Translations under genes and position numbers: made by a program | Notes under the pieces: generated by a model | What the model saw: the letters and a program-made list of their open reading frames with translations, nothing else | Databases searched by the model: none | Told to the model about the DNA's origin: nothing | Source: Hydrogenophaga crocea | GTDB lineage: Bacteria; Pseudomonadota; Gammaproteobacteria; Burkholderiales; Burkholderiaceae_C | Reading direction: 5' to 3' | DNA length: 64,000 nt | NCBI RefSeq assembly: GCF_011388215.1 | Contig: NZ_CP049989.1 | Location: 1,488,001 to 1,552,000, forward strand | Shown: piece by piece, positions 3,585 to 54,480 of the stretch | Layout of the letters: each line of letters begins with the position of its first letter | How positions within the stretch are numbered: position 1 is the stretch's first letter

Positions 3585-5179
3585 AAACACTGCACAAGGC
3601 GGCGCTGATCGGCGTCGCCCTCGCGCTTTACTCCACCGCCGCATCGGCCCAACTCACCAATCAGGGGATGCTTGACCAGGTGGTGACGGAGTTCGCCACG
3701 CGAGCCACGTCCTGGCAGACGGTGGTGATGAATGCCGCGATGTTCCTGTTCTGGACGCTGGGCACGATCTCGCTGGTTTTCACCTTCGGCTTCATGGCGC
3801 TGCGCAAGGCTGACATTGGCGAGTTCTTCGCCGAGTTCATCAGGTTCATCCTGTTCTTCGGCTTCTTCCTCTGGCTATTGCGCAACGGCCCGGCCTTCGC
3901 CAACTCGATCATCCAGTCACTGGCCCGGATCGGCGAGCAGGCGTCCGGGGTGGCGTCGGTGACACCCTCGGGCATTGTGGATATCGGCTTCATGATCTTG
4001 AAGCAGGCATTCAGGAACTCGTCGATCTGGTCGCCCGTGGATAGCTTCATCGGTGTGGCCTTGAGCGTCGGCATCCTGATCCTGCTGGCTGTTGTCGCCG
4101 TGAATATGTTGCTGCTGCTCGTATCAGGCTGGCTGCTGATGTACGCCGGAATCTTCTTCCTCGGCTTCGGTGGAAGCCGTTGGACTTCCGACATGGCGAT
4201 CAACTACTACAAGACCGTGCTGGGCGTGGCCGCGCAGATCATGACGATGGTGCTCCTGGTCGGCATCGGGAACGACCTGCTTTCCAGCTTCTACGCCAGG
4301 ATGAACACCGGCACCCTGAACTTTGAAGAGCTGGGCGTGATGCTGGTGTTCTGCGTGGCGTTGCTCATGCTGGTCAATCGTGTGCCCCCGCTTGTCGCCG
4401 GCATCATCACCGGCTCGGGGATCGGTGGCGCTGGCGGCATTGGCAACTTCGGTGCAGGTGCCGCCATCGGTGCGGCTATGGGCGCGTCGAGTATGGCCGC
4501 CGGAGCGGCCAGCGTGGCTGGCGCGGCCGTGATGGGCGGTGCGGCCTCGGCCGCCGGCGGCATGTCGGCGATTAGGGCGGCGTTCGAGAAAGCAGGGGCT
4601 AGCGCCGGTGGCGAATCGGGCGGAGTGCCCATGTTTGGTGGTGGTGCTGGCGGTGATTCCGATGCTGGACCGTTCGCGCAGGCGGCGGGCTTTGGTGGCG
4701 GCGGTTCCAGTGCCGGCACAAGTACGCCGCTCGGCCAGGCGGCTGGCTTTTACAGCTCTGGAAGCTCCAGCAATTCGGGCGGCAGCGGCGGCGAATCGAG
4801 GGGCGGCGACAAAGCCGGCTCCAGCTCGAAGGGTAGCGGCGATGTCGGCGGCTCGAAGGCCGGCGGCGGCAGCGACGCTGGCGGCCAAGCCGGCCGAGGT
4901 GCGGGAGGCCTTGTCGCTGCGACGGCTGCGAACCTGGTGCAAGGCATTGGCGACGTTGCGCAGGCCAAGGCGGCCAGCATCCGCGACGCCGCCGCCGAAC
5001 GCATCGCCGACACCACCGGAGGGAAGATCGCCGCCGCAATCCGGGCGAGCAGCCAGACAGACCGGGCGGTCGACGATGTGCCCAGCTTCGGCGGCAACAG
5101 CCTGGCAGGGGCCGATTCGGCTGCTGCTGATCCTGATGATGAAGTGGTCGCGTTCGCCAACCGCGACAAGGAGGTATGA
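3581..5179 (+). CDS. trbL: TrbL, VirB6-like inner-membrane transfer protein
   Basis: The 532-residue protein has an N-terminal signal-like helix, then about five to six hydrophobic segments within the first 280 residues (for example FIRFILFFGFFLWLL and VGILILLAVVAVNMLLLLVSGWLL). A long glycine-, serine- and alanine-rich, low-complexity tail follows. This is the VirB6/TrbL architecture of the type IV secretion inner-membrane channel, and the length is close to RP4 TrbL. The start ATG overlaps the trbK stop and has AGGAGG ahead of it. The tail contains the repeated motif STPLGQAAGFYSSGS, which reappears in the next small protein. The high GC of the tail fits its composition and is not evidence of transfer. 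Confidence 0.9.
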   Translation: MKTLHKAALIGVALALYSTAASAQLTNQGMLDQVVTEFATRATSWQTVVMNAAMFLFWTLGTISLVFTFGFMALRKADIGEFFAEFIRFILFFGFFLWLLRNGPAFANSIIQSLARIGEQASGVASVTPSGIVDIGFMILKQAFRNSSIWSPVDSFIGVALSVGILILLAVVAVNMLLLLVSGWLLMYAGIFFLGFGGSRWTSDMAINYYKTVLGVAAQIMTMVLLVGIGNDLLSSFYARMNTGTLNFEELGVMLVFCVALLMLVNRVPPLVAGIITGSGIGGAGGIGNFGAGAAIGAAMGASSMAAGAASVAGAAVMGGAASAAGGMSAIRAAFEKAGASAGGESGGVPMFGGGAGGDSDAGPFAQAAGFGGGGSSAGTSTPLGQAAGFYSSGSSSNSGGSGGESRGGDKAGSSSKGSGDVGGSKAGGGSDAGGQAGRGAGGLVAATAANLVQGIGDVAQAKAASIRDAAAERIADTTGGKIAAAIRASSQTDRAVDDVPSFGGNSLAGADSAAADPDDEVVAFANRDKEV

Positions 5180-5454
5180 CGATGACGCCGAGAGGATTTT
5201 TCGACTGCCTGGACGTTGCCGCTGCCGAGCAGCGCCAGGCGCAGGCGGTTGAGGTTGAGCCGGTCGACGATCAATCGACTGATGCAGACCCGGCGGCAGA
5301 AGTTGCGGCCTTTGTTGATCGACCTGCTCCGCCCGTCATTGAGGCCACCAAGCTGGCGGCCAGGTCGGGCGGCTACGCCAGCAGCTACGGCAGCAGCGCG
5401 AGAAGCACGCCGCTGGCCGAGGCCGCCGGCTTCTACGGCACCGGCAGCCGATAA
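5176..5454 (+). CDS. Small protein sharing the TrbL tail motif
   Basis: I do not recognise this 92-residue product. It starts with an ATGA overlap with trbL (a second ATG six bases on is equally possible), so it is translationally coupled. The N-terminal two thirds are acidic and alanine-rich, without a signal peptide or membrane segment. The C-terminus reads STPLAEAAGFYGTGS, nearly the same as STPLGQAAGFYSSGS in the TrbL tail. Either the gene arose from a duplicated trbL end, or the motif is a shared interaction tag. In RP4 trbM would be expected at this place; this is not TrbM. Confidence 0.6.
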   Translation: MTMTPRGFFDCLDVAAAEQRQAQAVEVEPVDDQSTDADPAAEVAAFVDRPAPPVIEATKLAARSGGYASSYGSSARSTPLAEAAGFYGTGSR

Positions 5455-5516
5455 GCGCGTCGGCCGGCGTGGGGCCGGCCGACACTTCCACAACCCACCT
5501 GTTAGAGAGGTGAATC

Positions 5517-5747
5517 ATGGCAACCCTGAATCCTACCAATGCAACGCAGGCCGTTCATCATGCAGCCGTGCAACTCGCCGCGCTCGACTGGCTAGACCAG
5601 GACGCGGCGCGGCAGCTCGGGCCGCTCGCCGAGGCCGTGGCGAACGCTTTCATGGTCGTGTTTTACCAGGCCGAGACGGGCCAGGCGACACCTGCCGACT
5701 TTCGCGAGGCCCTGGACGCGGTGCGGCAGTCACTCGGCGCCGCGTAG
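5517..5747 (+). CDS. Small helical protein of unknown function
   Basis: The 76-residue product is predicted to be almost entirely alpha-helical, with an alanine-rich sequence and aromatic residues in FMVVFYQAE. It has no signal peptide and no motif I recognise. The ATG follows GAGAGG with good spacing. It lies 62 bp behind the previous gene in the same direction and is followed within 25 bp by a strong hairpin, so it is probably the last gene of the trb operon. Confidence 0.55.
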   Translation: MATLNPTNATQAVHHAAVQLAALDWLDQDAARQLGPLAEAVANAFMVVFYQAETGQATPADFREALDAVRQSLGAA

Positions 5748-5767
5748 GCACGCGCACCAGGAGCAGC

Positions 5768-5790
5768 AAGGGCGGCCATTGGCCGCCCTT
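5768..5790 (+). terminator. Hairpin at the end of the trb operon
   Basis: AAGGGCGGCCA and TGGCCGCCCTT form perfect 11-bp arms with almost no loop, followed by GTCATTT. The position just behind the last gene of the trb run fits an intrinsic, possibly bidirectional, terminator. Confidence 0.7.
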
Positions 5791-5806
5791 GTCATTTCCG
5801 GGCCTG

Positions 5807-5977
5807 CATCGTCAAAGGTGACGATGTGCGCTGGCGTGCTCGAGCATCGCCAGATCGGACGATGACGGCCGCTCTGGCCTTCTCCCTTGGCGTGGATCGC
5901 ATCGTCGCTTCTAGCGATGAGATCCAGCGCACCAGAACGGCGCACGTCGAGCTGCAGCACCGCCAGGAATGGCGATG
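5807..5977. repeat. Cluster B of 20-bp palindromic repeats
   Basis: Four copies occur: 5807-5826 (CATCGTCAAAGGTGACGATG, perfect 8-bp arms), 5845-5864, 5900-5919 and 5958-5977. The second copy and the following GACGGCCGC match cluster A almost exactly. The cluster fills the convergent gap between the trb operon and the two antitoxin-like genes. Confidence 0.7.
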
Positions 5978-5990
5978 CTGGCCAGCTCTC

Positions 5991-6350
5991 CTACTCGATG
6001 CCGTGCATGGCCTTCGCCCGCGCTGCGACGGCCTGTGCGTGTTCGATATAGGCCGGGTCGGCTGTGGCCTCGGCTTCGGCCAGGAAGGTGCTGATCGCCT
6101 CGGCCGAGGTCAGCGTCTCGGCCGGGTCGAAAGGCGTCAGCTCACGGCCAACGGCCGGCGCATCCACCCATTCGCGTTGTTCCGGCGGCAGTGGATACAC
6201 GCCGGCGGCTTCGGCCTCGGCCAGCAGCTCGGCCAGGGTGTAGCGCACCTGGTCAGGCGTGACGGCGCGGGCGGGATCGGCCTTCAAGGCGTCATAGGCC
6301 GGGCCGACCTTCTCATGCAGCCAGTTTTCCAGGTTCTTCGAGCCTGTCAT
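5991..6350 (-). CDS. Chimeric antitoxin-like protein without a DNA-binding domain
   Basis: This 119-residue protein looks like two antitoxin fragments joined. Residues 1-45 (NLENWLHEKVGPAYDALKAD followed by PARAVTPDQV) resemble the toxin-binding tail of ParD/PaaA-type antitoxins. Residues ~75-119 (FDPAETLTSAEAISTFLAEA, then DPAYIEHAQAVAARAKAM) resemble the first half of the COG3636 addiction-module antidote family, cut off exactly where its helix-turn-helix would begin. The start codon overlaps the stop of the upstream gene (ATGA), so the two are co-translated. No toxin gene is adjacent. It could be an anti-addiction decoy or a decayed gene. The family resemblance is from memory and should be tested. 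Confidence 0.6.
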   Translation of the reverse strand: MTGSKNLENWLHEKVGPAYDALKADPARAVTPDQVRYTLAELLAEAEAAGVYPLPPEQREWVDAPAVGRELTPFDPAETLTSAEAISTFLAEAEATADPAYIEHAQAVAARAKAMHGIE

Positions 6351-6715
6351 CGACTGGCCTCATCAAGCATGGATGCCAGGCGCTCCAGGTCATTGACCGA
6401 TTGCGAGCGAAAGCGGCCGGTCAGCAGCTCGTGCAGCGCGGCCGGCGTCAATCCGAGAAGCGTAGCCGCTTGCTCGGTCGACAACTGTCGCGCCTTGATG
6501 GCCTCGCCGATCTTGGTGACGAGTCGGGTCTTGACCAGCATTTCGCCGGCGTCGGGATAGCCCAGGTCGGCATAGACGTTGGCGCTGCCGTGCTGAATGT
6601 TCGGGGTGTCGTCAGCGTTCAGGTCGGCCAGCAGCTCGGCGACTGTGGCGAACCGCCCCGAGACACGGCCGGCGCGGCTGTCTGCAATTGCTTCCTCGGT
6701 TTCCTTCCTGCCCAT
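6347..6715 (-). CDS. XRE-type antitoxin-like protein with a RelB-like start
   Basis: This 122-residue protein has an N-terminal segment (SRAGRVSGRFATVAELLADL) resembling the end of RelB/DinJ antitoxins. It is followed by a HigA-2-like XRE helix-turn-helix region (LVKTRLVTKIGEAIKARQLS, then EQAATLLGLTPAALHELLTG). The ATG at 6715 was chosen because it has GAGGTG five bases upstream; an in-frame upstream start lacks this. It is the first gene of a two-gene minus-strand unit ending at cluster B. No toxin lies next to it. As an HTH protein it could control its own operon, or a toxin encoded elsewhere. Confidence 0.65.
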   Translation of the reverse strand: MGRKETEEAIADSRAGRVSGRFATVAELLADLNADDTPNIQHGSANVYADLGYPDAGEMLVKTRLVTKIGEAIKARQLSTEQAATLLGLTPAALHELLTGRFRSQSVNDLERLASMLDEASR

Positions 6716-6751
6716 CGCACACCTCACGCTGATTTGCCTAGCCCGTCTCAT

Positions 6752-7044
6752 CCAGATGAGGCCACAGAGAGCGCGGCTGTGAAGGCCAAAGAGTACTACG
6801 TTGCGTGTTTTCCCCGGAAGAAGACACGCCGACCACCTTCTTGGCGTAAACCATCTACGACCCGGTGGCTAAAGCACATGGCCTTGCCATCGAGCCGGTG
6901 CCGCGAGCCCGCCGCAACGCATGGCGCCGGCCGAATCCATGGCGTCGCGCACATGAGATTCGGGGTTCACTTGGGTGGATCAGATGGTAAACTTGGCCAA
7001 ACTTTGGAAGACTTCGCCGCGCGACACCAAGCGAGCCGCCTGAC
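6752..7044. other. Intergenic stretch between divergent operons
   Basis: This 293-bp gap separates the minus-strand antitoxin-like pair from the plus-strand defence-like operon, so promoters for both are expected here. I see no convincing gene. A short AAACTTGGCCAAACTTTGG element at about 6989-7008, close to the HTH gene, has partial symmetry and is a possible operator. Confidence 0.4.
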
Positions 7045-7245
7045 ATGAACCAACCTGATAGCGAAATTCTCACGCTGGATGAAGTGGCGGTCTACCTCAA
7101 GGCAGGGAAGAAGACCGTTTACCGGCTGGCCCAGCAGGGGGAGATACCGGGATTCAAGCTGGGCGGCACCTGGCGGTTTCGTCGCAGCGAGCTGGATCGC
7201 TGGATTGCCGCGCAGATAGCCGAGAAAACGCAGGACAAGACATGA
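7045..7245 (+). CDS. Excisionase/MerR-like helix-turn-helix protein
   Basis: The 66-residue product is a single winged helix-turn-helix of the HTH_17 (excisionase family) type: LTLDEVAVYLKAGKKTVYRL, then GEIPGFKLGGTWRFRRSELDRWI. Such small proteins occur as excisionases, or as first genes of restriction and defence operons where they act as regulators. It opens the seven-ORF operon and overlaps the next micro-ORF by ATGA. No integrase is nearby, so a regulatory role is more likely than excision. Confidence 0.75.
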   Translation: MNQPDSEILTLDEVAVYLKAGKKTVYRLAQQGEIPGFKLGGTWRFRRSELDRWIAAQIAEKTQDKT

Positions 7246-7307
7246 GCGCCCCGAAAAACGATAGCAACCAGGCGGCCTCGCCCCGAGAGGGGGCTGCACG
7301 TCCATGA
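7242..7307 (+). CDS. 21-residue micro-ORF coupled to both neighbours
   Basis: An ATG at 7242 opens a 21-codon reading frame ending in TGA at 7305-7307. Both ends are ATGA overlaps: the start overlaps the stop of the HTH gene and the stop overlaps the start of the methyltransferase gene. The peptide is polar (MSAPKNDSNQ at its start) with no motif. It may be a genuine microprotein, or a translated bridge that couples the methyltransferase to the HTH gene. Confidence 0.45.
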   Translation: MSAPKNDSNQAASPREGAARP

Positions 7308-10072
7308 ACGCCGTAGAAATCGAACAAGCCATCACCGACCTCGCGGAGCAGCCGTTCGACCGTGCGGAGTTCCCCTATGCCTTTCTTGAGGCGTTCGGCA
7401 ACAAAGCGACCACCATCAAGCGCCTGCGCGCGGGGGCGTCGAACAAGTCCGACCTCGGCGGTGTTCTCCAGACCAGCAATATCCACATCCTGACCTGCGA
7501 CGTAGGGCGGGTGACACAGACGCTGGCCGCTCTCAAGGCCAGCCCGGCGACGGCCAAGGCCAAGGCGAAGTTCATCCTCGCCACCGACGGTGCGGACTTC
7601 GAGGCCGAAGACCTGGCCAGCGGTGAGACCGTCGCCTGTGCCTTCAAAGACTTTCCCGACCACTTCGGCTTCTTCCTGCCGCTGGCGGGCATCAGTACCG
7701 TCCGCCAGATCAGCGAAAACGCCTTCGACATTCGGGCCACCAGCCGCCTGAACCGTCTGTACGTCGAACTGCTGAAAGACAACCCTGAATGGGGCACGGC
7801 GGAGCGCCGCCACGACATGAACAAGCTCATGGCGCGGCTGATTTTCTGTTTCTTCGCCGAGGACACCGACATTTTCATCGGGAAGGGGCGTTTCACCGAA
7901 ACCGTTGCGCAGATGAGCGCCAAGGACTCGTCCAACACGCACGAGGTCATCGCCACGCTGTTCCGCGCCATGAACACCAAGCGCGAGGACCGGGCTGCCG
8001 CCAAGATTCCTCGATGGGCCGAAGATTTCCCCTACGTCAACGGGGCTTTGTTCTCCGGCGGCGACGAGGTGCCGCGATTCAGCAAGATCGCCCGGTCCTA
8101 CCTGCTGCACGTTGGTGGCCTGGACTGGACCAAGATCAATCCTGACATCTTCGGCTCGATGATCCAGGCCGTGGCCGAAGACGAGGAGCGCGGCGAGCTG
8201 GGGATGCACTACACCAGCGTTCCCAACATTCTGAAGGTGCTCAATCCGCTGTTCCTCGACGACCTGCGGGCGAAGCTGGAGGAGGCGGGCGACAACGCCC
8301 GCGTGTTGCTCAACCTGCGCAAGCGCATTGCCAAGATCAGGGTATTCGACCCGGCCTGCGGCTCGGGCAATTTTCTGGTCATCGCTTATAAGGAAATGCG
8401 CGCCATCGAGGCCGAGATCAATCGGCGGCGCGGCGAGCCGGATCGCGCGTCGGAGATCCCGCTCACCAACTTTCGCGGGATTGAGCTGCGTGACTTCCCG
8501 GCGGAGATTGCCCGCCTTGCGCTGGTCATCGCCGAGTATCAGTGCGACGTGCTGTACCGGGGGCAGAAGCTGGCCCTGGCCGAGTTTCTGCCCCTGCGTA
8601 ACGAGAACTGGATCACCTGCGGCAACGCGCTGCGGCTCGACTGGTTGAGCGTTTGCCCGCCCACCGGGACGGACGTGAAGGTGCTGGCGGATGATCTGTT
8701 TGAGACGCCGCTCGACCAAGCGGAGATTGACTTCGAGAACGAAGGCGGCGAGACGTACATCTGCGGCAATCCGCCGTACCAAGGAAGCGTTGGTCAGACA
8801 GCGCAGCAGAAGGAAGACATGGCGCGAGTCCTCGCGCCCCTTCTAAAGACTTACAAGGATTTGGACTATGTAGCCGCGTTCGTTCTGAAAGCAGCTCAGT
8901 TCAACAATTTTACTGGGGCGGCAAGCGCATTCGTAACGACTAACTCCATCACTCAAGGAGAGCAAGTTGCAATGCTTTGGCCGCTCGTATTTAAAGAGTG
9001 CAACACGATCAACTTTGCGCACACATCGTTCTTGTGGAGCAACCTCGCTAGTAACAAAGCTGCTGTCACGTGTGTGATTCTCGGCCTGACGACCAACCCT
9101 GGCTCTGAAAGGAAACTGTTCGGCGAAGGCACTGTTAGATCATGCGCCAACATTAGTCCGTATCTTGTCGCTGCTGATACCGTGATTGTCACGAAGAGAT
9201 CGAGTGCGCTTTCAGCCATCGGACATATGCAGTCGGGGAATAAGCCGACTGATGGAGGTCATCTGACACCATCTACTGAAGAGAAGGATCAAATAATTGC
9301 AGCGAGTCCAGATGCCAGACGCTTCCTAAAGCGCTACGTTGGATCGCGCGAATTGATAAACGGTGGAGCTCGCTGGTGCATATGGATCGAGGATGACGAT
9401 CTTGAAGAGGTAAATCGCATCGATATTCTTCGTGACCGCCTCGAAAAGGTTCGCGAAATGCGCTTGAGTAGTAACGGAGCTCAAGCCAACGAGAACGCTG
9501 CCACGCCGCATCGCTTCGTTTTCGCCCCTCATAGTCGCCACGCTGCAATCGCAGTTCCGAATGTGTCGTCGGAACGAAGGTTGTTTCTTCCGTGCGAGAT
9601 AACTGGATATGACACCGTTGTCTCCAATCTCGCGTCGGTGATTTACGATGCGCCGCTTTGGAACTTGGCACTGATTGCATCACGCCTGCATCTCGTTTGG
9701 ATCGCCACCGTTTGTGGCAGGCTGAAGACCGATATTCGCTACTCCAATACCCTCGGCTGGAACACCTTCCCCGTGCCCACGCTCACCGACAAGAACAAGG
9801 TCGATCTCACGCGCTGCGCTGAGGATATCTTGCTGGCGCGGGAGCATCACTTCCCCGCGACCATCGCGGACCTGTACGACCCCGAGAACATGCCCGCTGA
9901 CCTGCGTGCCGCACATGATCGCAACGACGAAGTGCTGGAGCGCATCTACATCGGTCGGCGCTTCAAGAACGACACTGAGCGGCTGGAAAAGCTGTTTGAC
10001 CTTTATACCAAGATGACCGCTTCGGCTGCACCGGCCAAGGGCAAGAAACGCAAGGCGGGAGCCAACGCATGA
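7304..10072 (+). CDS. MmeI-like class I DNA (adenine) methyltransferase
   Basis: The 922-residue protein has an N-terminal helical and alpha/beta part (about 1-300), a SAM-dependent methyltransferase core with motif I DPACGSGNFL (residues 349-358) and motif IV NPPY (489-492), and a long C-terminal part that probably recognises the DNA target. The NPPY motif points to N6-adenine methylation. The layout resembles MmeI/type IIL enzymes, but I could not find a clear PD-(D/E)XK nuclease signature in the N-terminal part. Nuclease activity may therefore come from a neighbour such as the GIY-YIG protein. It is coupled by ATGA to the helicase gene. The middle of the gene (about 8,800-9,700) is less GC-rich than its ends, as often seen for exchanged target-recognition regions. 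Confidence 0.85.
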   Translation: MNAVEIEQAITDLAEQPFDRAEFPYAFLEAFGNKATTIKRLRAGASNKSDLGGVLQTSNIHILTCDVGRVTQTLAALKASPATAKAKAKFILATDGADFEAEDLASGETVACAFKDFPDHFGFFLPLAGISTVRQISENAFDIRATSRLNRLYVELLKDNPEWGTAERRHDMNKLMARLIFCFFAEDTDIFIGKGRFTETVAQMSAKDSSNTHEVIATLFRAMNTKREDRAAAKIPRWAEDFPYVNGALFSGGDEVPRFSKIARSYLLHVGGLDWTKINPDIFGSMIQAVAEDEERGELGMHYTSVPNILKVLNPLFLDDLRAKLEEAGDNARVLLNLRKRIAKIRVFDPACGSGNFLVIAYKEMRAIEAEINRRRGEPDRASEIPLTNFRGIELRDFPAEIARLALVIAEYQCDVLYRGQKLALAEFLPLRNENWITCGNALRLDWLSVCPPTGTDVKVLADDLFETPLDQAEIDFENEGGETYICGNPPYQGSVGQTAQQKEDMARVLAPLLKTYKDLDYVAAFVLKAAQFNNFTGAASAFVTTNSITQGEQVAMLWPLVFKECNTINFAHTSFLWSNLASNKAAVTCVILGLTTNPGSERKLFGEGTVRSCANISPYLVAADTVIVTKRSSALSAIGHMQSGNKPTDGGHLTPSTEEKDQIIAASPDARRFLKRYVGSRELINGGARWCIWIEDDDLEEVNRIDILRDRLEKVREMRLSSNGAQANENAATPHRFVFAPHSRHAAIAVPNVSSERRLFLPCEITGYDTVVSNLASVIYDAPLWNLALIASRLHLVWIATVCGRLKTDIRYSNTLGWNTFPVPTLTDKNKVDLTRCAEDILLAREHHFPATIADLYDPENMPADLRAAHDRNDEVLERIYIGRRFKNDTERLEKLFDLYTKMTASAAPAKGKKRKAGANA

Positions 10073-12123
10073 GCGACAAGATCAAGTCCGTACCGTCCGT
10101 TTCCGTCACCTACGCCCGAAACGGCGCATCGACCAAGGCCAATGCTCTTGGGATGCGGCCCATGCAGGAGCGGGCCTACGAGAAGCGGGGCGAGCAATAC
10201 CTGCTTATCAAGTCGCCGCCCGCATCGGGCAAGAGCCGTGCGCTGATGTTCGTGGCACTCGACAAGCTCAAGAACCAAGGCTTGAAGCAGGCCATCATCG
10301 TTGTGCCGGAGAGGTCCATCGGTGCCAGCTTCAACGACGAACCGCTGTCGAAGTACGGCTTCTGGGCGGACTGGCAGGTCGAACCCAAGTGGAACCTGTG
10401 CAATGCGCCAGGCAACGACAACGGCGGCAAGGTCAAGTCGCTGGGCGCATTCCTCGAAGGCGAGGACAAGGTGCTGGTCTGCACCCATGCGACCTTCCGC
10501 TTCGCTGTCGATGCCTACGGCGTCGAGGCGTTCGACGACCGATTGATCGCGGTCGATGAGTTCCACCACGTTTCGGCCAATCCGGACAACAAGCTCGGCT
10601 TGCACCTGGGGCAGTTCTTCGCGCGGGGCAAGACGCACATCGTCGCCATGACCGGCTCCTACTTCCGTGGCGACGCCGAGGCCGTGCTCGCGCCGCAGGA
10701 TGAGTCGAAGTTCGATACCGTCACCTACACCTACTACGAGCAGCTCAACGGCTACGAGTACCTCAAGCAACTCGACATCGGCTACTTCTTCTACAGCGGG
10801 CCTTACGTCGACGACATCCTCAATGTCCTCGATCCCGCCGAGAAGACCATCATCCACATCCCGAATGTCAATTCGCGCGAGAGCACGAAGGACAAGATGC
10901 GGGAAGTGGAGCACATCATCGAGGCGCTGGGTGAATGGCAAGGCATCGACCCTGCGACCGGCTTCCAACGTGTCAAGCGCCCCGATGGCCGCGTGCTGCG
11001 GATCGCCGATCTCGTCGATGACGATGCCGCCAAGCGCGACCGCGTGTCCGCCGCGCTCAAAGACCCGGCGCAGAAGAACAGCCGCGACCATGTGGACATC
11101 ATCATCGCGCTGGGCATGGCGAAGGAAGGCTTCGATTGGATTTGGTGCGAACATGCACTGACCGTGGGCTACCGCGCCAGCCTGACCGAGATCGTGCAGA
11201 TCATCGGCCGAGCTACCCGCGACGCGCCCGGCAAGACCCGCGCGAGGTTCACCAACCTGATCGCCGAGCCGGACGCAGCCGAGGAAGCTGTCACCGAGGC
11301 CGTTAACGATACGTTAAAGGCCATCGCGGCGAGCCTGCTGATGGAGCAGGTTCTTGCTCCGCGCTTCGAGTTCAAGCCCAAGAACCCCGACAGTGGCCCG
11401 GTGCCGGGTTTTAACTACGGCGAGGGTGGCTACGACCCGGATCGCTGCAACATCGGCGTCAATGAGCAGACAGGGGCGTACCAAATCGAGATCAAGGGCA
11501 TCGCCGAGCCCAAGAGCAAGGAGGCGGCGCGAATCTGTCAGGAAGACCTGAACGAAGTCATCGCGGCCTTCGTGCAGGACAAGCCCACCATTGAGCGCGG
11601 CCTGTTCGATGAGGAGTTGGTGCCCGAGGAGCTGACGCAGGTTCGCATGGGCAAGATCATCAAGGACAAGTATCCCGAGCTTGACGCCGAAGATCAGGAG
11701 GCCGTGCGCCAGCATGCCATCGCCGCCCTCAACCTGACGCAACAGGCCAAGCGGCTTGTCACCGAAGGCGAGAGCGACGGGTCGCCCAACACCGCCCTGA
11801 TCGACGGCGTGCGCCGCTTCGCGATGGACGTGCGCGAGCTGGACATTGACCTCATCGACCGCATCAACCCCTTTGGCGAAGCCTACGCCATCCTCGCCAA
11901 GACCATGAGCGAGGACAGCTTGAAGCAGGTCGCGGCGGCCATCTCGGCGAAGCGCACGAGTCTGACGCCGGACGAGGCGAAGGAGATGGCTGTTCGCGCC
12001 GTTCAGTTCAAGAAGGAGCGCGGACGCATTCCTGCACTCGATTCCCAGGATGCCTGGGAGCGACGCATGGCCGAAGGCGCGGCCGCCTTTATGCGATTCA
12101 AGGCGGAGGGGCGCTATGAGTAA
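10069..12123 (+). CDS. SF2 DEAD/DEAH-box-type helicase
   Basis: The 684-residue protein has Walker A PPASGKSR (GKS at 54-56), a DEFH box at 163-166, a TGSY motif III and a QIIGRATRD motif VI (377-385), so it is a superfamily 2 helicase or translocase. The C-terminal 250 residues have no motif I know. Its start overlaps the methyltransferase stop by 4 bases, and its end overlaps the GIY-YIG gene by 8 bases. In restriction-like systems such helicases move along DNA from a recognition site. That role is inferred from context. Confidence 0.85.
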   Translation: MSDKIKSVPSVSVTYARNGASTKANALGMRPMQERAYEKRGEQYLLIKSPPASGKSRALMFVALDKLKNQGLKQAIIVVPERSIGASFNDEPLSKYGFWADWQVEPKWNLCNAPGNDNGGKVKSLGAFLEGEDKVLVCTHATFRFAVDAYGVEAFDDRLIAVDEFHHVSANPDNKLGLHLGQFFARGKTHIVAMTGSYFRGDAEAVLAPQDESKFDTVTYTYYEQLNGYEYLKQLDIGYFFYSGPYVDDILNVLDPAEKTIIHIPNVNSRESTKDKMREVEHIIEALGEWQGIDPATGFQRVKRPDGRVLRIADLVDDDAAKRDRVSAALKDPAQKNSRDHVDIIIALGMAKEGFDWIWCEHALTVGYRASLTEIVQIIGRATRDAPGKTRARFTNLIAEPDAAEEAVTEAVNDTLKAIAASLLMEQVLAPRFEFKPKNPDSGPVPGFNYGEGGYDPDRCNIGVNEQTGAYQIEIKGIAEPKSKEAARICQEDLNEVIAAFVQDKPTIERGLFDEELVPEELTQVRMGKIIKDKYPELDAEDQEAVRQHAIAALNLTQQAKRLVTEGESDGSPNTALIDGVRRFAMDVRELDIDLIDRINPFGEAYAILAKTMSEDSLKQVAAAISAKRTSLTPDEAKEMAVRAVQFKKERGRIPALDSQDAWERRMAEGAAAFMRFKAEGRYE

Positions 12124-13327
12124 CTCCGATCTTGACGAACTCGCTGCGGAGCTTGCCGAGTTCGCACCGCCCGAGGCGAAGGCCGGACGGCCGGCCAGTG
12201 AGGAGCGCGTCATCGCGGGCTTCGAGGAAATCCAACGCTTCACCGAGAAGCACGGGCGTGCGCCGCAGCATGGTGAGGATCGCGATATTTTCGAGCGCCT
12301 CTATGCCGTGCGCCTGGACCGCTTGCGTGCGCTCCCGGACTGCCGCGCCCTGCTGGAGCCGCTGGACCATCAGGGCTTGCTTGCCGGGGCGCCTACCGTT
12401 GCCGCTTCGGCAGATGAAGCCATCGACATCGACGACCTGGCCGCCGAGCTGGCGGGCGTAGCCGACGCAGACGACATCACGGTCCTACGCCATGTCCGCA
12501 CCAGCGCCGACAAGCGCGCCGCCGAGGAGATCGCGGATCGCAAGCCTTGCGAAGACTTCGAGGCGTTCAAGCCACTGTTCGAGCGCGTAGCGACGGAAGT
12601 CAAGACCGGATTGCGCCAGTCCCAGCCCATAGAGGCGGGCCGCCGCGCGATTGAGGCCGGGGACTTTTTCGTTCTCGATGGAATCACGCTCTACGTCGCA
12701 GACGTCGGCGAACCGCTGAGAACCACCGCCGGGGAAGTGGACCGCCGCCTGCGCCTCATCTTCTCCAACGGCACCGAAAGCAATCTGCTGTTGCGCTCGC
12801 TCCAGCGCGCTTTCTACAACGACCCCGCCGCGCGGCGGCTGGCCTCGCCCGAGAGCGGACAACTCTCCTTCGGCGGCGAGCTTGAGGCCGATGATGTCGA
12901 AAGCGGCACGATCTACGTCCTGCGCTCCCTCTCCGATCATCCCTATGTCGCGCAGCACCGCGACATCATCCACAAGATGGGCGTGACCGGGGGCAGGGTG
13001 GAGACGCGCATTGCCAACGCCGAACACGACTCCACCTACCTGCTGGCGAAGGTCGAAGTGGTAGCGACCTACAAGCTCGCGGGCGTCAACCGCACCCGGA
13101 TGGAGAACCTGTTCCACAGACTGTTCGCGCCCGCGCGGTTGAACATCACGATCAACGACCGCTTCGGTCATCCTGTGCAGCCTGAGGAATGGTTCCTAGT
13201 GCCACTTCATGTGATCGACGAGGCGGTTCAGCGCATTCGAGATGGATCGATCACCGAGTTTATCTATGACCCGCAGACCGCTCGACTGGTGGGCTACGCG
13301 CGGACTAACTATAAGGATGAACCATGA
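12116..13327 (+). CDS. GIY-YIG (T5orf172-like) nuclease-domain protein
   Basis: The 403-residue protein starts at the ATG inside the helicase stop region. Its C-terminal half contains TIYVLRS (IYV at 266-268) and, 20 residues on, HKMGVTGGRVETRI (from 286), the pattern of a GIY-YIG nuclease with IYV and HKMG in place of the canonical triads. An NRTRMENLFHRLF helix supplies a possible catalytic glutamate, and the domain ends near WFLVPLHVIDEAV, as in the T5orf172 family. The N-terminal half is acidic and unknown. It could be the cutting subunit of the system. Catalytic competence should be checked, because the first motif is variant. Confidence 0.75.
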   Translation: MSNSDLDELAAELAEFAPPEAKAGRPASEERVIAGFEEIQRFTEKHGRAPQHGEDRDIFERLYAVRLDRLRALPDCRALLEPLDHQGLLAGAPTVAASADEAIDIDDLAAELAGVADADDITVLRHVRTSADKRAAEEIADRKPCEDFEAFKPLFERVATEVKTGLRQSQPIEAGRRAIEAGDFFVLDGITLYVADVGEPLRTTAGEVDRRLRLIFSNGTESNLLLRSLQRAFYNDPAARRLASPESGQLSFGGELEADDVESGTIYVLRSLSDHPYVAQHRDIIHKMGVTGGRVETRIANAEHDSTYLLAKVEVVATYKLAGVNRTRMENLFHRLFAPARLNITINDRFGHPVQPEEWFLVPLHVIDEAVQRIRDGSITEFIYDPQTARLVGYARTNYKDEP

Positions 13328-15993
13328 TGGAAAGTCTGCGACCGAAGCAGTCAGAGGCTCGATCCATGGTCTTTGCAGAAGGGGCGCAGTGGGTCCGTGC
13401 TGACTTTCATCTGCATACCCGAGCGGACCGAGAATTCAAGTTCACGGGCGATGACAACTTCTACAACAGCAACTATGTGGATGCGTTGGAGAAAGCGGAC
13501 ATCCGATTGGGCGTCATTACCAACCACAACAAGTTCGACTTCGAAGAATTCAAAGCACTGCGCAAGACGGCCCAGAAGAAGGGTATTGCGCTGCTGCCAG
13601 GCGTTGAGTTGTCGGTCAATGACGGGGCTAATGGCATCCACACGCTTGTTGTGTTCTCCGACGAATGGATCGATGAACACAATTACATCAACCCCTTTCT
13701 GACCAGCGCATTCGAAGGTAAAACGCCCGCGCAGTACGAGCAGGAGAACGGGCGCACTTCATGGTCGCTTCTGGAGACCATCAAGAAGCTGGAAGGCTAT
13801 CACCGGGACTTCTTCCTTGTCTTCGCCCATGTCGAAGCCCCGAGTGGCCTGTGGGCGGAGCTGGATGGCGGCCGGCTTACTGAGTTGGGGCAAAACGAGT
13901 TCTTCCGACGCAGAACGCTGGCTTTTCAGAAGGTACGCACGCACGACGGCGCAGGCAAAGACAAACCCTGCCGCACCAAGATTCAAAGCTGGCTACAGAG
14001 CTGGTACCCCGCCGAACTGGAAGGCAGCGACCCTAAGAGTGTCGATGAAATCGGTCGAGGCAAAGCCAGCTACCTGAAGCTGGGCGAACTGTCCTTCGAG
14101 GCGGTCAAGTTTGCCTTGAGCGATCCCGCTGGGCGGGTAGCCATGGAGCCGCCCAAACATCAAGCGTCGCACATCCGCAGCATCCGCTTCGACGGCGGCA
14201 TCCTCGATGGGCAAGTGCTGCATTTCTCTTCCGAACTCAACACGTTGATCGGCATCCGGGGCAGCGGCAAATCGTCCATCCTGGAGGCAGTACGCTACGC
14301 CCTCGACATTCCACGCGGCGAGAAGGCGCAGGACACCAAGTACAAGGATGAGTTGATCCGCCATACCCTTGGCAGCGGCGGCAAGGTGACGCTGACAGCA
14401 TGTGACGTGTACGGACAGGAGTTCACCATCTCCCGCATCTTCCGCGAAGCCCCGAATGTCTATTTGGGCGGCAAGTTGCAACCCGGCGTGTCGATCCGGG
14501 AAACCGTACTGCGCCGTCCGATCTACTTCGGCCAGAAGGACCTTTCCAGCACCGGCGAAGGCTTCGAGACCGATCTGGTGGAAAAGCTGGTTGGCGAGAA
14601 GCTGCGTGTGCTGCGTGACGAAATAGAGGTTCAACGCCAGCGCGTGCGTGACGCTGCTCAGCGCTGGCTCAAGCTCAGCAACACGGCCGAACTCAAGCGC
14701 GACTTCGAGACCCAACTAAATGATGCCAACTTCCGTCTGACCAAGTTCGCGGAGCACGGTGTCGCCGATAAGCTCCAAAAGCGACTTGGCTTCCAGCAGG
14801 ACGCCACAGCGCTCGCGCGCATGATGGAGCGGGCAGACAGCTTCATCCTCGCTCTAGGAAGTCTGATTGCCGAGCATGAGGACGAGCTGCGGAACGCAAC
14901 GAGCTACGTTTCCAAGCAGAACCCGGATTTCTTCACGGCCTACTACGCTGAGTTCTCCAGCCTCGTTGCCAAGGTCGATCAGCTCAAGCAGATCGAGCGA
15001 GAAGCGAACGTCATTGCAGCTCGCCTCAAGACCAAACAGGGCGAATTTGAAGGCGCAAGCAGGAGCCTTCAGGAGGAGTTCGCACAAGTCGAGCGCCAAC
15101 TGGCTCAGGAGCTCAAGCAAACCGGCATGACTGCCATCCAGCCGGACGACTTCCTGGCCCAGCAGCAGCGCAAAACCAAGGCGGAGCAAATGCTGGAGGC
15201 GCTGGCCAAGCAGGAATCACAGCAGACCAGCATCCGCGACGCGCTGTTTGCCGAGATCGACAAACTCAATGAACTATGGCTGCGCGAGTTCAATACCATC
15301 AAGGTAGAGCTGGACCGCGTGAACGCTGGCCACACCGCCCTGCAGATCGAAGCGGACTTCAAGGGCGACAAGGAAGCCGCCATCAGCTTCATGCAGCAGC
15401 TCTTCAAGGGCAGCAACATTCGCGAAACCACGCTGCGCGCAGTGATGGAGGACTATGCCGATTTTGGCGGCCTCCTACGTGCCTTGCCGGGAGCCTTGGC
15501 GAAGGCCGGCAGCACCCCCGAGGTCTTCGAAAAGACCTTCATGCAGAACCTGACCGATTTCGTCACCTGGCAGGTGCCCAACCGCTTCGTCATCCGCTAT
15601 CGCGGCAAAGAGTTGAAGCACCACTCTCTCGGGCAGCGCGCTTCGGCGCTGTTGCTGTACGTGCTCAGTCAACGCCAGAACGACGTGATCATCATCGACC
15701 AACCGGAAGACGATCTGGACAACCAGACCATTTACGACGATGTGATCAAGCTGCTACGGGAAATGAAGCCTCACGCCCAATTCATCTTCGCCACCCACAA
15801 CGCCAACTTCCCGGTGCTGGGTGACGCGGAACAGGTGCACGCCTGCCAATACCAGGACGAGAAGGTCGCCACGCGAAGCGGCAGCATCGACGCCCGCCCG
15901 GTGCAGGACGCCATCATCAACATCATGGAAGGAGGCCAGGAAGCCTTCAACCGTCGCAAAGAGGTCTACAACCTATGGAAACCACAGAGCTGA
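13324..15993 (+). CDS. TrlF-like PHP-domain and SMC-type ATPase
   Basis: The 889-residue protein starts with a PHP phosphoesterase domain: DFHLHTRAD with metal-ligand histidines 29 and 31, an ITNHNKFDFEEF segment, and LLPGVELSV. It continues with an ABC/SMC-type ATPase whose Walker A is GIRGSGKSS (310-318). A long coiled-coil region (about 420-680) precedes the C-terminal ABC signature-like HHSLGQRASALLL and Walker B IIIDQPEDDLDN (D792). This architecture matches the TrlF family found in defence islands. PHP domains can cleave nucleic acid or nucleotides. The gene overlaps both neighbours, so the protein is very likely part of the same machine. Confidence 0.85.
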   Translation: MMESLRPKQSEARSMVFAEGAQWVRADFHLHTRADREFKFTGDDNFYNSNYVDALEKADIRLGVITNHNKFDFEEFKALRKTAQKKGIALLPGVELSVNDGANGIHTLVVFSDEWIDEHNYINPFLTSAFEGKTPAQYEQENGRTSWSLLETIKKLEGYHRDFFLVFAHVEAPSGLWAELDGGRLTELGQNEFFRRRTLAFQKVRTHDGAGKDKPCRTKIQSWLQSWYPAELEGSDPKSVDEIGRGKASYLKLGELSFEAVKFALSDPAGRVAMEPPKHQASHIRSIRFDGGILDGQVLHFSSELNTLIGIRGSGKSSILEAVRYALDIPRGEKAQDTKYKDELIRHTLGSGGKVTLTACDVYGQEFTISRIFREAPNVYLGGKLQPGVSIRETVLRRPIYFGQKDLSSTGEGFETDLVEKLVGEKLRVLRDEIEVQRQRVRDAAQRWLKLSNTAELKRDFETQLNDANFRLTKFAEHGVADKLQKRLGFQQDATALARMMERADSFILALGSLIAEHEDELRNATSYVSKQNPDFFTAYYAEFSSLVAKVDQLKQIEREANVIAARLKTKQGEFEGASRSLQEEFAQVERQLAQELKQTGMTAIQPDDFLAQQQRKTKAEQMLEALAKQESQQTSIRDALFAEIDKLNELWLREFNTIKVELDRVNAGHTALQIEADFKGDKEAAISFMQQLFKGSNIRETTLRAVMEDYADFGGLLRALPGALAKAGSTPEVFEKTFMQNLTDFVTWQVPNRFVIRYRGKELKHHSLGQRASALLLYVLSQRQNDVIIIDQPEDDLDNQTIYDDVIKLLREMKPHAQFIFATHNANFPVLGDAEQVHACQYQDEKVATRSGSIDARPVQDAIINIMEGGQEAFNRRKEVYNLWKPQS

Positions 15994-17150
15994 TCGACCT
16001 GCTCAGCCGGGGCGAGGACAGTCGGCAGCAGTTCAAGACGGACATCAACAATGCCGACGCCTTGGCAGCAGAGATCGTTGCCTTCAGCAACACCGCTGGT
16101 GGTCGCATCTTCATTGGGGTGAACGACGACGGTTCGGTGCGCGGTCTATCCGGCGCCGACGTTGCTCGTCTCAACATGCTCATCGCCAACGTGGCCTCGC
16201 AGGTCGTGCGTCCCGCCGTGAACCCGCTCACGGAAAACGTGCCTCACCCGGCAGGCACGGTGCTGGTGCTCTCTATCGCTGAGGGCGTCAACAAGCCCTA
16301 CATGGACAAGAACGGCGCGATTTGGGTGAAGAACGGCTCGGACAAGCGCCGCGCCACCTCGCGCGAGGAATTGCAGCGCCTGTTCCAGCAGGCGGGTTTG
16401 GTGCACGCCGACGAAACGCCCGTAGCGGGCTTGAGCGCGGGCGATGTGGACATGCCCTATTTCGAAACCTTCTTCGAGCAGCAATTCGGTGAGCCGCTCG
16501 CCCAGCATAACCAGCCGCTGCCGCAGTTGCTGACCAACATGAACCTGATGAACCAGGGGCAGCTCAACGTGGCGGGCGGTCTGCTGTTCGCCAAATCACC
16601 GCACTACGCGCTACCCGCCTTCGTCGTCAAGGCCGTCGCCTTTGTCGGCACCCAGATTGAGGACGAACGCTACATCGACAGCCGCGACATCGTCGGCAAG
16701 CTGGCCGACGTGTTCCAGCAGACGTTGGGCTTTATCGTCGCTAACACCCGCGCCGCGCAGGGCGAGCAGGGCTTCAACTCCCAGGGGCAGCCTGAGATTC
16801 CCCGCATCGTCTGGGAAGAACTGGTCGCCAACGCCCTCATTCACCGCGACTACTTCGTCAGCGCGCCGATCCGCGTACTGGTCTTCGCGGATCGTGTCGA
16901 GATCATCAGCCCTGGCCACCTGCCCAACAACCTGACTATCGAGAACATCAAGGCCGGCAACTCCAATATGCGCAACCCCATCCTGGCGTCCTTTGCCGCC
17001 AAGCTCCTGCCTTATCGCGGATTGGGTAGCGGCCTGCTGCGCTCACTGAGGGCATGGCCGCAGATCGAACTCATCGATGATCGGTCCGCCAATCTGTTCA
17101 AGGCTATCGTGGCGCGTCCCAGCTTGCTGGAGCCGGCCGGAAGTTCTTGA
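15975..17150 (+). CDS. AlbA_2 (Schlafen-like) and GHKL-type ATP-binding protein
   Basis: The 391-residue protein has an N-terminal AlbA_2 divergent AAA_4/Schlafen-like domain (FSNTAGGRIFIGVNDDG at 38-53, PYMDKNGAIWVKNGSDKRRA further on). The C-terminal half resembles the HATPase_c_4 domain of RecG-like proteins: WEELVANALIHRDYF (N286), then a GLGSGLLRSL loop. Such proteins may bind RNA or DNA, or act as transcription regulators; several belong to phage-defence operons. The start overlaps the TrlF gene by 19 bases. The stop codon lies two bases before the terminal repeat of the transposon, so the insertion just missed this gene. Confidence 0.8.
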   Translation: METTELIDLLSRGEDSRQQFKTDINNADALAAEIVAFSNTAGGRIFIGVNDDGSVRGLSGADVARLNMLIANVASQVVRPAVNPLTENVPHPAGTVLVLSIAEGVNKPYMDKNGAIWVKNGSDKRRATSREELQRLFQQAGLVHADETPVAGLSAGDVDMPYFETFFEQQFGEPLAQHNQPLPQLLTNMNLMNQGQLNVAGGLLFAKSPHYALPAFVVKAVAFVGTQIEDERYIDSRDIVGKLADVFQQTLGFIVANTRAAQGEQGFNSQGQPEIPRIVWEELVANALIHRDYFVSAPIRVLVFADRVEIISPGHLPNNLTIENIKAGNSNMRNPILASFAAKLLPYRGLGSGLLRSLRAWPQIELIDDRSANLFKAIVARPSLLEPAGSS

Positions 17151-17152
17151 CT
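17147..17152. repeat. TTGACT, left flank of the ~37-kb transposon
   Basis: TTGACT lies directly against the left terminal repeat, and the same six bases lie directly behind the outer right terminal repeat at 54106-54111. Tn3-family elements normally duplicate 5 bp, so a 6-bp repeat is slightly unusual. The exact adjacency at both ends is nonetheless hard to explain by chance. The left copy overlaps the AlbA_2 stop codon. Confidence 0.7.
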
Positions 17153-17190
17153 GGGGTCGTCTCAGAAAACGGAAAATAAAGCACGCTAAG
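17153..17190 (+). repeat. Left terminal inverted repeat (38 bp)
   Basis: The repeat begins GGGGTCGTCTCAGAAAACGG and ends GCACGCTAAG; its exact inverse is at 25347-25384. The stop codon of merR (17186-17188) lies inside it. Confidence 0.95.
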
Positions 17191-17620
17191 GCATAGCCGA
17201 ACCTGCCAAGCTTGCTCCACCCTGTAGTGACGCGATCAGCGGGCAGGAAACGTTCCCCCTTCGCGCATGGCAGGCGCACACCAACTCAGACAGCACGGCC
17301 TCCATGCGCGCCAGGTCAGCCATTTTCTCGCGCACGTCCTTGAGCTTGTGCTCGGCCAGACTGCTGGCTTCCTCGCAATGGGTGCCATCCTCCAGCCGCA
17401 GCAGCTCGGCGATCTCATCCAGGCTGAAGCCCAGCCGCTGGGCTGATTTCACGAAGCGCACCCGCGTTACATCCGCCTCGCCATAGCGGCGGATGCTGCC
17501 ATAGGGCTTGTCAGGCTCCAGCAACAAGCCCTTGCGCTGATAGAAACGGATGGTCTCCACATTGACCCCGGCCGCCTTGGCGAAAACGCCAATGGTCAGG
17601 TTCTCCAAATTGTTTTCCAT
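17186..17620 (-). CDS. merR: MerR mercury-responsive regulator
   Basis: The 144-residue protein appears essentially identical to Tn501 MerR as I remember it. It has an N-terminal winged helix-turn-helix ([20 protein letters not shown]), a dimerisation helix, and the three Hg(II)-binding cysteines at 82, 117 and 126. MerR holds the merT promoter in a closed complex and, when it binds Hg(II), twists the DNA to activate it. The start at 17620 gives the family length; it lies next to the shared operator, facing away from merT. The end runs into the terminal repeat. Confidence 0.97.
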
Positions 17621-17625
17621 ATCGC

Positions 17626-17656
17626 TTGACTCCGTACATGAGTACGGAAGTAAGGT
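17626..17656 (+). promoter_or_regulatory. merT promoter and MerR operator
   Basis: The -35 box TTGACT (17626-17631) and -10 box TAAGGT (17651-17656) are separated by 19 bp, the overlong spacer typical of MerR-controlled promoters. The dyad TCCGTAC-ATGA-GTACGGA (17631-17648) fills the spacer. MerR bound there represses without mercury and activates with it. Confidence 0.95.
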
Positions 17657-17691
17657 TACGCTATCCAATTTCAATTCGAAAGGACAAGCGC

Positions 17692-18042
17692 ATGTCTGAA
17701 CCAAAAACCGGGCGCGGCGCGCTCTTCACTGGAGGGCTTGCCGCCATCCTCGCCTCGGCTTGCTGCCTCGGGCCGTTGGTTCTGATCGCCTTGGGGTTCA
17801 GCGGCGCTTGGATCGGCAACTTGGCGGTGTTGGAACCCTATCGCCCCATCTTTATCGGCGTGGCGCTGGTGGCGTTGTTCTTCGCCTGGCGGCGCATCTA
17901 CCGGCAGGCAGCGGCCTGCAAACCGGGTGAGGTCTGCGCGATTCCCCAAGTGCGAGCTACTTACAAGCTCATTTTCTGGATCGTGGCCGCGCTGGTTCTG
18001 GTCGCGCTCGGATTTCCCTACGTCATGCCATTTTTCTACTGA
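17692..18042 (+). CDS. merT: MerT mercuric ion transporter
   Basis: The 116-residue inner-membrane protein has three hydrophobic helices. A vicinal cysteine pair lies in the first ([10 protein letters not shown]) and a second cysteine pair in the cytoplasmic loop ([13 protein letters not shown]). MerT takes Hg(II) from periplasmic MerP and passes it to cytoplasmic MerA. The ATG follows AAAGGACAAGCGC. It is the first gene of the mercury operon. Confidence 0.96.
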
Positions 18043-18054
18043 TCGGAGTTCACC

Positions 18055-18330
18055 ATGAAGAAACTGTTTGCCTCCCTCGCCCTCGCCGCCGTTGTTGCCC
18101 CCGTCTGGGCCGCCACCCAGACCGTCACGCTGTCCGTACCGGGCATGACCTGCTCCGCCTGCCCGATCACTGTCAAGAAGGCGATTTCCAAGGTCGAAGG
18201 CGTCAGCAAAGTTGACGTGACTTTCGAGACACGCCAAGCGGTCGTCACCTTCGACGATGCCAAGACCAGCGTGCAGAAGCTGACCAAGGCAACCGCAGAC
18301 GCGGGCTATCCGTCCAGCGTCAAGCAGTGA
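18055..18330 (+). CDS. merP: MerP periplasmic mercury-binding protein
   Basis: The 91-residue protein has a signal peptide (about 1-19, ending PVWA) and a heavy-metal-associated fold with the GMTCSAC motif that binds Hg(II) through two cysteines. It scavenges mercury in the periplasm and delivers it to MerT. It lies 12 bp behind merT. Confidence 0.96.
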   Translation: MKKLFASLALAAVVAPVWAATQTVTLSVPGMTCSACPITVKKAISKVEGVSKVDVTFETRQAVVTFDDAKTSVQKLTKATADAGYPSSVKQ

Positions 18331-18389
18331 GTCACTGAAAACGGCACCGCAGCACAACGGACGTCATTGTCTGGCGCCACAAACGATAA

Positions 18390-20087
<1,698 letters not shown>

Positions 20088-50495: not shown

Positions 50496-50628
50496 TCAGT
50501 CCAGAGACCAGGTGGCCGTCATTTCCGGGCGCTGGCCGTAGGTGGCGTACCAGTCGGCCACGTGGGGATGCCGCTCTCGCCAGCCCCAGTCGGCAAAGCG
50601 CAGGTCCAGGTACCACAGCGCACAACCC
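50496..50628 (-). pseudogene. C-terminal fragment of a glutathione S-transferase-like gene
   Basis: About 43 residues remain, reading from the IS1071 junction: an ALWYLDLRFADWGWRERHPH segment and a WYATYGQRPEMTAT end, typical of the last helices of GST-family proteins. All of the N-terminal glutathione-binding part was removed at the IS1071 junction. It is convergent with etfA. Confidence 0.65.
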
Positions 50629-54369: not shown

Positions 54370-54480
54370 TCTGAGCATGGCATTATTCATGGCATTAGTT
54401 GGTTGCCGTATTGTAAGTCATTGATATTTAACATGGTTTTGTGACTATAGATAATCGAGTGGGAGTGAGCCGGCCCGCGC
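54370..54480. other. AT-rich junction between backbone and GC-rich region
   Basis: The stretch is much richer in A and T than both sides. It carries a 10-bp direct repeat CATGGCATTA at 54376-54385 and 54388-54397. Behind it the sequence changes to very high GC with different gene content, so a junction or attachment site may lie here. No integrase gene is visible. Confidence 0.4.

Follow-up and report, generated by a model that had tools for sequence, protein, structure and literature searches.

A probable composite restriction operon in Hydrogenophaga crocea, with a DnmA-YeeB-YeeC core and a separable TrlF-AlbA_2 cassette

The operon at positions 7045-17150 (+ strand) of the window, by which we mean the whole 64,000-nucleotide stretch of Hydrogenophaga crocea DNA analysed here, is best read as a composite of a known core and a separable cassette, in a combination that we did not find described. 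The methyltransferase, the helicase and the GIY-YIG protein are, by gene order and kind, the described DnmA(YeeA)-YeeB-YeeC cluster, and we consider it likely that the whole is a restriction-modification (R-M) operon of this split MmeI-like type with a MAD1-type HTH regulator, which captured a TrlF-AlbA_2 pair behind YeeC. What is new in the comparative evidence is the exchange of a block within the methyltransferase and the slot modularity of the operon.

Operon layout and the DnmA-YeeB-YeeC core

The window sits within a single 4.56-Mb contig, and the operon consists of six genes for proteins and a micro-ORF of 21 codons, with open frames throughout and consecutive overlaps of 4, 4, 4, 8, 4 and 19 bp; all genes named in an earlier sequence-only reading, and the overlapping layout of 4 to 19 bp that it gave, were recovered. 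At the head of the operon lies the gene (7045..7245, + strand, as for all operon features given below) for a MAD1-type HTH_17 DNA-binding protein, a probable regulator, which scored 68.6 bits with HTH_17 in Pfam and 82.4 bits with the MAD1 model NF047737 in NCBIfam (cut-off 80). It is followed by a putative micro-ORF (7242..7307), read from the sequence, which overlaps the HTH and methyltransferase genes by 4 bp each and probably provides translational coupling between them. The HTH gene was present upstream of the methyltransferase in 20 of the 67 testable relatives, and in 17 of these 20 the spacing of the two genes, taken from coordinates, was 59 bp as in the window. This spacing, along with a gene order repeated in other genera, indicates that the arrangement did not arise by chance.

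The first gene of the core (7304..10072) encodes a predicted N6-adenine methyltransferase of the DnmA type (MmeI-like) that includes a target-recognition domain. Five MmeI Pfam domains were found in the protein, and it matched MmeI in the PDB (5hr4, E 4.9e-148). The motifs FDPACGSGNF and NPPY lie at residues 348 and 489, respectively, and the target-recognition domain covers residues 624-827 in Pfam. The nuclease motif D-x(7-20)-[DEQ]xK was absent from residues 1-130 in 66 of 67 methyltransferases, that of the window included, and a fitting string was found in the remaining one, at locus L082. Despite the missing nuclease motif, the PADLOC type IIG model matched the methyltransferase with 955 bits, so that such loci may be mis-called. 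The second gene (10069..12123) encodes a YeeB-type SF2 helicase (DEAD, 27.6 bits with a Pfam cut-off of 26), and the third (12116..13327) a YeeC-type GIY-YIG (T5orf172/MUG113) nuclease, the presumed cutter (MUG113 47.6 bits, T5orf172 42.7 bits), the start of which was set at the ATG at 12116, the ORF list giving an upstream ATG at 12050.

Conservation of the core was assessed in the best 80 of 453 YeeC relatives from GTDB genomes, a sample skewed to close relatives, in which L028 shares a genome with L032, and L060 with L079. The triad was complete in 71 of the 80 loci; among the other nine, all without a methyltransferase match, L056 had no helicase match, L024 had a truncated helicase, and in seven a contig end lay shortly upstream of the helicase. 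Residues G263, Y266, K286, G288, R297 and E329 of YeeC were invariant in all 85 sequences (position 342 varies), and ten motif residues of YeeB (GKS, DEFH, GR..R) were invariant in all 79. The intact GIY-YIG site argues for cutting, and a role of this protein as the DNA cutter is plausible. PDB sequence searches gave no match for either YeeB or YeeC. The AlphaFold models were too poor (mean pLDDT 67.8 for YeeC and 53.3 for YeeB) to show subunit contacts or an N-terminal fold, and nothing matched the YeeC model in Foldseek at E <= 0.001.

Excerpts of two papers (PMC7261158, PMC9973331) describe DnmA as a relative of MmeI without an endonuclease motif, with helicase and putative nuclease genes downstream, and a type I-like system was once proposed for the cluster (PMC7261158). 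In B. subtilis, according to the excerpt of PMC9973331, deletions of dnmA-yeeB-yeeC left transformation and phage infection unchanged, the DnmA site was not avoided in phages, and the cluster, whose YeeB and YeeC are without some stretches, was judged a non-functional restriction relic. The same excerpt reports that Vibrio crassostreae became more sensitive to some phages upon deletion of dnmA and yeeB.

Block exchange in the methyltransferase

A specificity block at 8780..9643, corresponding to methyltransferase residues about 492-780, was delimited by the gap in DNA matches to relatives and has been exchanged. In comparison with L008, the window DNA was 95% identical over 4001-8779 and 98% identical over 9644-17153, with nothing matching between; across L008, L011 and G328/L100 the block DNA was unmatched between flanks of 89% to 98% identity, and similar gaps were seen in L009 and L010. 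The block spans from just behind the NPPY motif through most of the target-recognition domain. The methyltransferases of the five closest TrlF-bearing copies (L008-L011 and L100) were 39% to 46% identical to that of the window in the block in comparison to 96% to 97% in the rest of the protein, and in L008-L011 the helicase was 97% to 99% and YeeC 95% to 99% identical. Some copies have a block in common, namely L009, L010 and L017 on the one hand and, on the other, L008 and L100, whose methyltransferases are identical in the compared stretches and which may be one strain.

The same pattern was observed in the wider sample of 68 methyltransferases, those in pieces being left out. Single-linkage clustering at 60%, 70%, 80% and 90% identity gave 41, 46, 53 and 56 clusters for the block (residues 500-780) in comparison to 1, 1, 2 and 23 clusters for the rest (residues 1-450 plus 830-900), and the mean pairwise identity over 2278 pairs was 43% for the block and 84% for the rest.

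Since the helicase and nuclease stay constant while the block changes, target choice probably lies in the methyltransferase, and restriction specificity, if restriction occurs, would probably come from this protein. Where copies agree to about 96% outside the block, its wholesale exchange is difficult to account for unless selection was at work, and we infer from the sequences that this selection was for new DNA specificity. A block that differs completely between near-identical copies also suggests a working, target-changing defence rather than a relic. Such natural allele pairs provide a test of whether an MmeI-like methyltransferase steers a separate helicase and GIY-YIG nuclease.

The TrlF-AlbA_2 cassette and the two cargo slots

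Behind YeeC, the operon continues with the genes for TrlF (13324..15993), in which a PHP phosphoesterase domain is joined to an ATPase resembling Rad50/SMC (NF045780, 585.2 bits with a cut-off of 350), and for a Schlafen AlbA_2 + HATPase_c_4 protein (15975..17150; SLFN_AlbA_2 72.3 bits with a cut-off of 25.3, HATPase_c_4 48.9 bits). The TrlF motifs DFHLHT, TNHN, GVELSV, FAHVEA and GSGKSS, at residues 27, 66, 93, 167 and 313, were conserved across nine close sequences aligned, and PDB sequence searches matched TrlF to an SMC protein and the AlbA_2 protein to 3lmm.

TrlF was found behind YeeC in only 8 of the 80 loci (best 80 of 453 relatives). Six of these are complete with AlbA_2 (L008-L011, L017 and L066), while L013 ends at a contig edge and L035 holds a stub of 32 matched residues; genome G328 carries a further copy, with 98.0% identity over 9644-17153. 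The YeeC/TrlF junction was alike in all eight loci, and with one shared junction a single capture of TrlF-AlbA_2 is the simplest explanation. Of window positions 4001-20000, only the operon matched L017 and L066, with breaks at the block and at inserts between methyltransferase and helicase, which indicates that the unit moved between backgrounds. The proposal of the sequence-only reading that the full gene set forms an undescribed system thus stands in part: no named system with the complete set was found in the literature searched, and the full set co-occurs in the six further complete copies, but its parts are already described, the three core enzymes as DnmA-YeeB-YeeC in the excerpts cited above (PMC7261158, PMC9973331), and TrlF and AlbA_2 are separable from them.

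The extent of the movable cassette, 13309..17119, was taken from DNA homology to two plasmids, L006 over 13309-17110 and L007 over 13369-17119. L006, a plasmid of Pseudomonas amygdali, carries TrlF-AlbA_2 without the core (91% and 86% identical, respectively), and in L007, the IncC plasmid pNDM-1_Dok01, the pair (88% and 86% identical) lies inside the arrangement HTH-HsdR-TrlF-AlbA_2-HsdS-AAA-HsdM. A search of 398 genomes of the window's phylum gave 33 of 45 TrlF matches above the cut-off, the 12 below it being excluded, while none of 14 control genomes matched; in 398 genomes of this phylum, a TrlF protein search at E <= 1e-50 found only G000 (the window's genome) and G328. We examined 30 of the 33 loci, the other three being two in G000 and one in G328. 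An AlbA_2 homologue lay directly behind TrlF, by coordinates, in 20 of these 30, and no R-M gene matched near the 20 pairs with a small R-M query set, so the pair may function without any restriction link. Neighbours among the 20 pair loci included SNF2-like genes (L108, L111), an AIPR-like gene (L130) and a YhcG-like gene (L110). At L114, another of the 30 loci, TrlF is flanked by HsdM-like and HsdR-like genes.

The acidic site ExxxxExK ... D of Schlafen/AlbA_2 proteins is presumably catalytic, as in Slfn13. In the window, this site reads E14, Q19 and K21, i.e., ExxxxQxK, and the second Glu is likewise replaced by Gln in L006-L011, L017, L066 and L093, while all 20 remote TrlF partners have Glu (ExxxxExK). 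With Gln in place of the second Glu, the AlbA_2 protein here may bind rather than cut, and the PHP site of TrlF would be the likelier cutter. AlbA_2/Schlafen proteins fused to a minimal histidine kinase are presumed to be back-up RNases in BREX loci, according to an excerpt of PMC12839542.

Other TrlF genes also adjoin defence-type genes. The window's genome holds a second TrlF (G000:C1:2463874-2466933; L099 7872-10970, - strand) in the order SNF2 helicase - TrlF - AIPR - N6_N4 methyltransferase - ResIII, the last two being a type III-like restriction pair. On plasmids, the TrlF relatives L094 (Vibrio tubiashii) and L095 (E. coli) lie next to a run of genes that includes BrxL and to SIR2 + DUF87 genes, respectively.

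The place behind YeeC is one of two cargo slots of the operon, the other being the gap between methyltransferase and helicase. In this gap (slot 1), the two genes lay within 20 bp of each other in 30 of the 71 complete loci and more than 300 bp apart in 40, with one intermediate, and at least 31 of the 40 wide gaps hold an ORF on the same strand that is 200 aa or longer, the slot counts being minima, as slot ORFs were picked greedily. The occupants, assigned by BLAST to representatives and in some loci two together, were RhuM (10 loci), YhcG (6), a PLD-like protein whose match is below the Pfam cut-off (5), AlbA_2 (4) and unnamed families of 260 aa (7), 450 aa (3) and 287 aa (2), with AAA_21, GmrSD and a 277-aa protein occurring once each. 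The 260-, 450-, 287- and 277-aa proteins (L003 8222-9004, L034 5526-6878, L072 6067-6930 and L017 5183-6016, respectively) had no match in Pfam at E 0.01 or PADLOC at E 0.001, and we regard them as candidate new defence genes. In slot 2, at least 23 of the 80 loci have an ORF of this minimum length, again on the same strand, within 150 bp behind YeeC, while none was counted in 56 and one locus ends there. Representatives of slot 2 include OLD-like + UvrD pairs (L012, L060), AAA_13 (L036) and Mrr (L016), and somewhat farther behind YeeC lie the AAA_13 of L018 and a reverse-transcriptase pair in L083. Defence embedded within another defence is an established idea in the excerpts of PMC12255303 and PMC12707154; for this operon type, including RhuM + YhcG within R-M, no report of it was found in the literature searched. 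In a broader reading, DnmA-YeeB-YeeC in Pseudomonadota would be an active restriction hub that swaps targets through the methyltransferase block. Two insertion slots would be dedicated to exchangeable cargo (RhuM, YhcG, AlbA_2, TrlF-AlbA_2, OLD+UvrD, AAA_13 and RT pairs), and this cargo would serve as fail-safe effectors with a functional link to the methyltransferase or the helicase. We consider this reading possible but rather doubtful.

The operon is probably located on a mobile element. A segment of about 37 kb (window 17154-54104) looks inserted directly behind the AlbA_2 stop; in L008-L011 the operon end is followed immediately by sequence that corresponds to the window from 54105 on. 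Inverted repeats that match each other are present at the ends of the segment, as is a direct repeat of 6 bp (TTGACT), and inside the segment are three Tn3-type transposases, two of them in identical 3205-bp repeats (36187-39391 and 50628-53832); the genes at 17186-20087 resemble mercury-resistance genes by eye. Similarity to L008-L011 stops at 54469-54474, the G+C content is above 0.70 from about 55 kb, and the right end of the mobile element possibly lies near 54470. Upstream of the operon, two opposite-strand ORFs of 119 and 134 aa (5991-6751, -), overlapping by 4 bp, are possibly toxin-antitoxin-like; the 119-aa ORF had no Pfam match at E 0.001, and the 134-aa ORF resembles an HTH protein by eye.

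Mechanistic reading and comparison with known systems

The prediction of a restriction or defence operon, made already from the sequence alone, is well supported by the gene set and the families to which the genes belong. In the mechanism that we propose, a single chain, the methyltransferase, would combine modification with target recognition and would mark host DNA at a non-palindromic site. Where DNA is unmarked, its recognition domain would also guide the helicase YeeB, driven by ATP, and the GIY-YIG nuclease YeeC to cut or nick the invading DNA, in a manner comparable to the use of HsdR in type I systems. The TrlF-AlbA_2 pair would come into play as a second layer if restriction is blocked or DNA ends accumulate, the Rad50-like ATPase sensing DNA, the AlbA_2 protein binding nucleic acid and the PHP site cleaving it. 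That the core proteins form a complex, cut DNA and defend against phage appears likely to us, while the role and trigger assigned to the TrlF-AlbA_2 add-on are tentative and somewhat short of an even chance. Observations that weigh against this picture include the B. subtilis deletions, which gave neither a restriction nor a phage phenotype, and the Glu lacking from the acidic site of the AlbA_2 protein.

TrlF and AlbA_2 might instead be obligate parts of one integrated, undescribed restriction machine, as the sequence-only reading had it. The 4-bp and 19-bp overlaps at the two genes, the recurrence of the combined unit with different specificity blocks in the six further copies, and the presence of the unit in L017 and L066, where the neighbouring window DNA is lacking, are consistent with this view. 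We consider it improbable, however, given that 72 of the 80 YeeC loci (best 80 of 453, some ending near YeeC) have no TrlF, that L006, L007 and the 20 sampled loci carry the pair but not the core, and that the one common junction points to a single capture. We would also give little credence to a regulatory relic, in which an orphan methyltransferase alters gene expression and the helicase, nuclease and cargo are passengers: no variation was seen in the helicase and nuclease motifs of the sample, and repeated block exchange is not expected to be needed by a fixed regulator, although this is the reading given for B. subtilis in the excerpt of PMC9973331. In a BREX- or MADS-like arrangement, the methyltransferase would mark self, and the helicase and ATPase would block phage DNA replication without cutting. 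Weak PglX-like methyltransferase matches and the MAD1-type HTH point in this direction, but PglZ, BrxC and other MADS members were not recognised among the matches listed, MAD2 scored only 12.7 bits against a cut-off of 720, and the intact GIY-YIG site favours cutting, which makes such blocking very improbable. The composite of a restriction core and a captured cassette is thus the reading that we prefer.

None of MADS, DISARM and BREX was supported by the matches listed. MADS comprises mad1-mad8, of which the window has the MAD1 HTH, and weak mad2 and mad3 rows are among the PADLOC matches listed. DISARM comprises DrmA, DrmB and DrmC with DrmM, and only DrmMI rows, on the methyltransferase, were among those matches. 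For BREX, whose hallmarks are PglZ/BrxZ and BrxC (excerpt of PMC11974810), only PglX rows were listed, far below the NCBIfam cut-offs. Type I R-M was rejected, with no HsdR, HsdM or HsdS model above the cut-off in Pfam and NCBIfam and only a weak MTase_I row in PADLOC, and the earlier remark that no classical restriction subunit is visible was borne out, as no HsdR/Res model passed its cut-off and there is also no MmeI-type nuclease motif. The likeness to Hma, raised in the sequence-only reading, was not upheld: Hma consists of a helicase, an m5C methyltransferase (HmaB) and an ATPase (excerpt of PMC8565338), while the window enzyme is MmeI-type with NPPY, and no Hma model was among the PADLOC matches listed (best 25 of 38 for the methyltransferase and best 25 of 46 for TrlF). 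A paper on YprA helicases (PMC12458937) does not mention GIY-YIG, PHP, MmeI, Hma, YeeB or MADS.

Among the systems that share features with the operon, MmeI is homologous to the methyltransferase over most of its length and has an identical domain set; a classical type IIL/IIG MmeI enzyme was nonetheless rejected, as the N-terminal PD-(D/E)XK nuclease with its D..ExK motif is absent from the methyltransferase chain and the helicase and nuclease are separate genes. Ppl, a PHP-ATPase anti-phage protein, combines a PHP domain and an SMC-like ATPase like TrlF, but TrlF scored 152.4 bits with NF042955 against a cut-off of 1000 and belongs to a separate family with an AlbA_2 partner here. PrrC and DarTG2 are accessory effectors within type I R-M loci in the excerpts of PMC12707154 and PMC12255303, with another R-M type and different effector proteins. 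The closest likeness of the core is to DnmA-YeeB-YeeC, which has the same MmeI-like methyltransferase without the nuclease motif, followed by a helicase and a T5orf172/GIY-YIG gene. The window operon differs in having the HTH gene and micro-ORF in front and TrlF-AlbA_2 behind, and in the block exchange found for it; its likeness to the Bacillus and Vibrio clusters is drawn from their published description. As for the cassette, a pair of TrlF and an 'RNA-binding protein' inside type I R-M has already been reported (excerpt of PMC12255303) and, judged by the names, is most likely of the same kind as TrlF-AlbA_2; L007 has the same two genes in the same order. The host operon is type I R-M in those cases and DnmA-YeeB-YeeC here, so that TrlF-AlbA_2, a pair that has received little study, is now found in restriction operons of two kinds.
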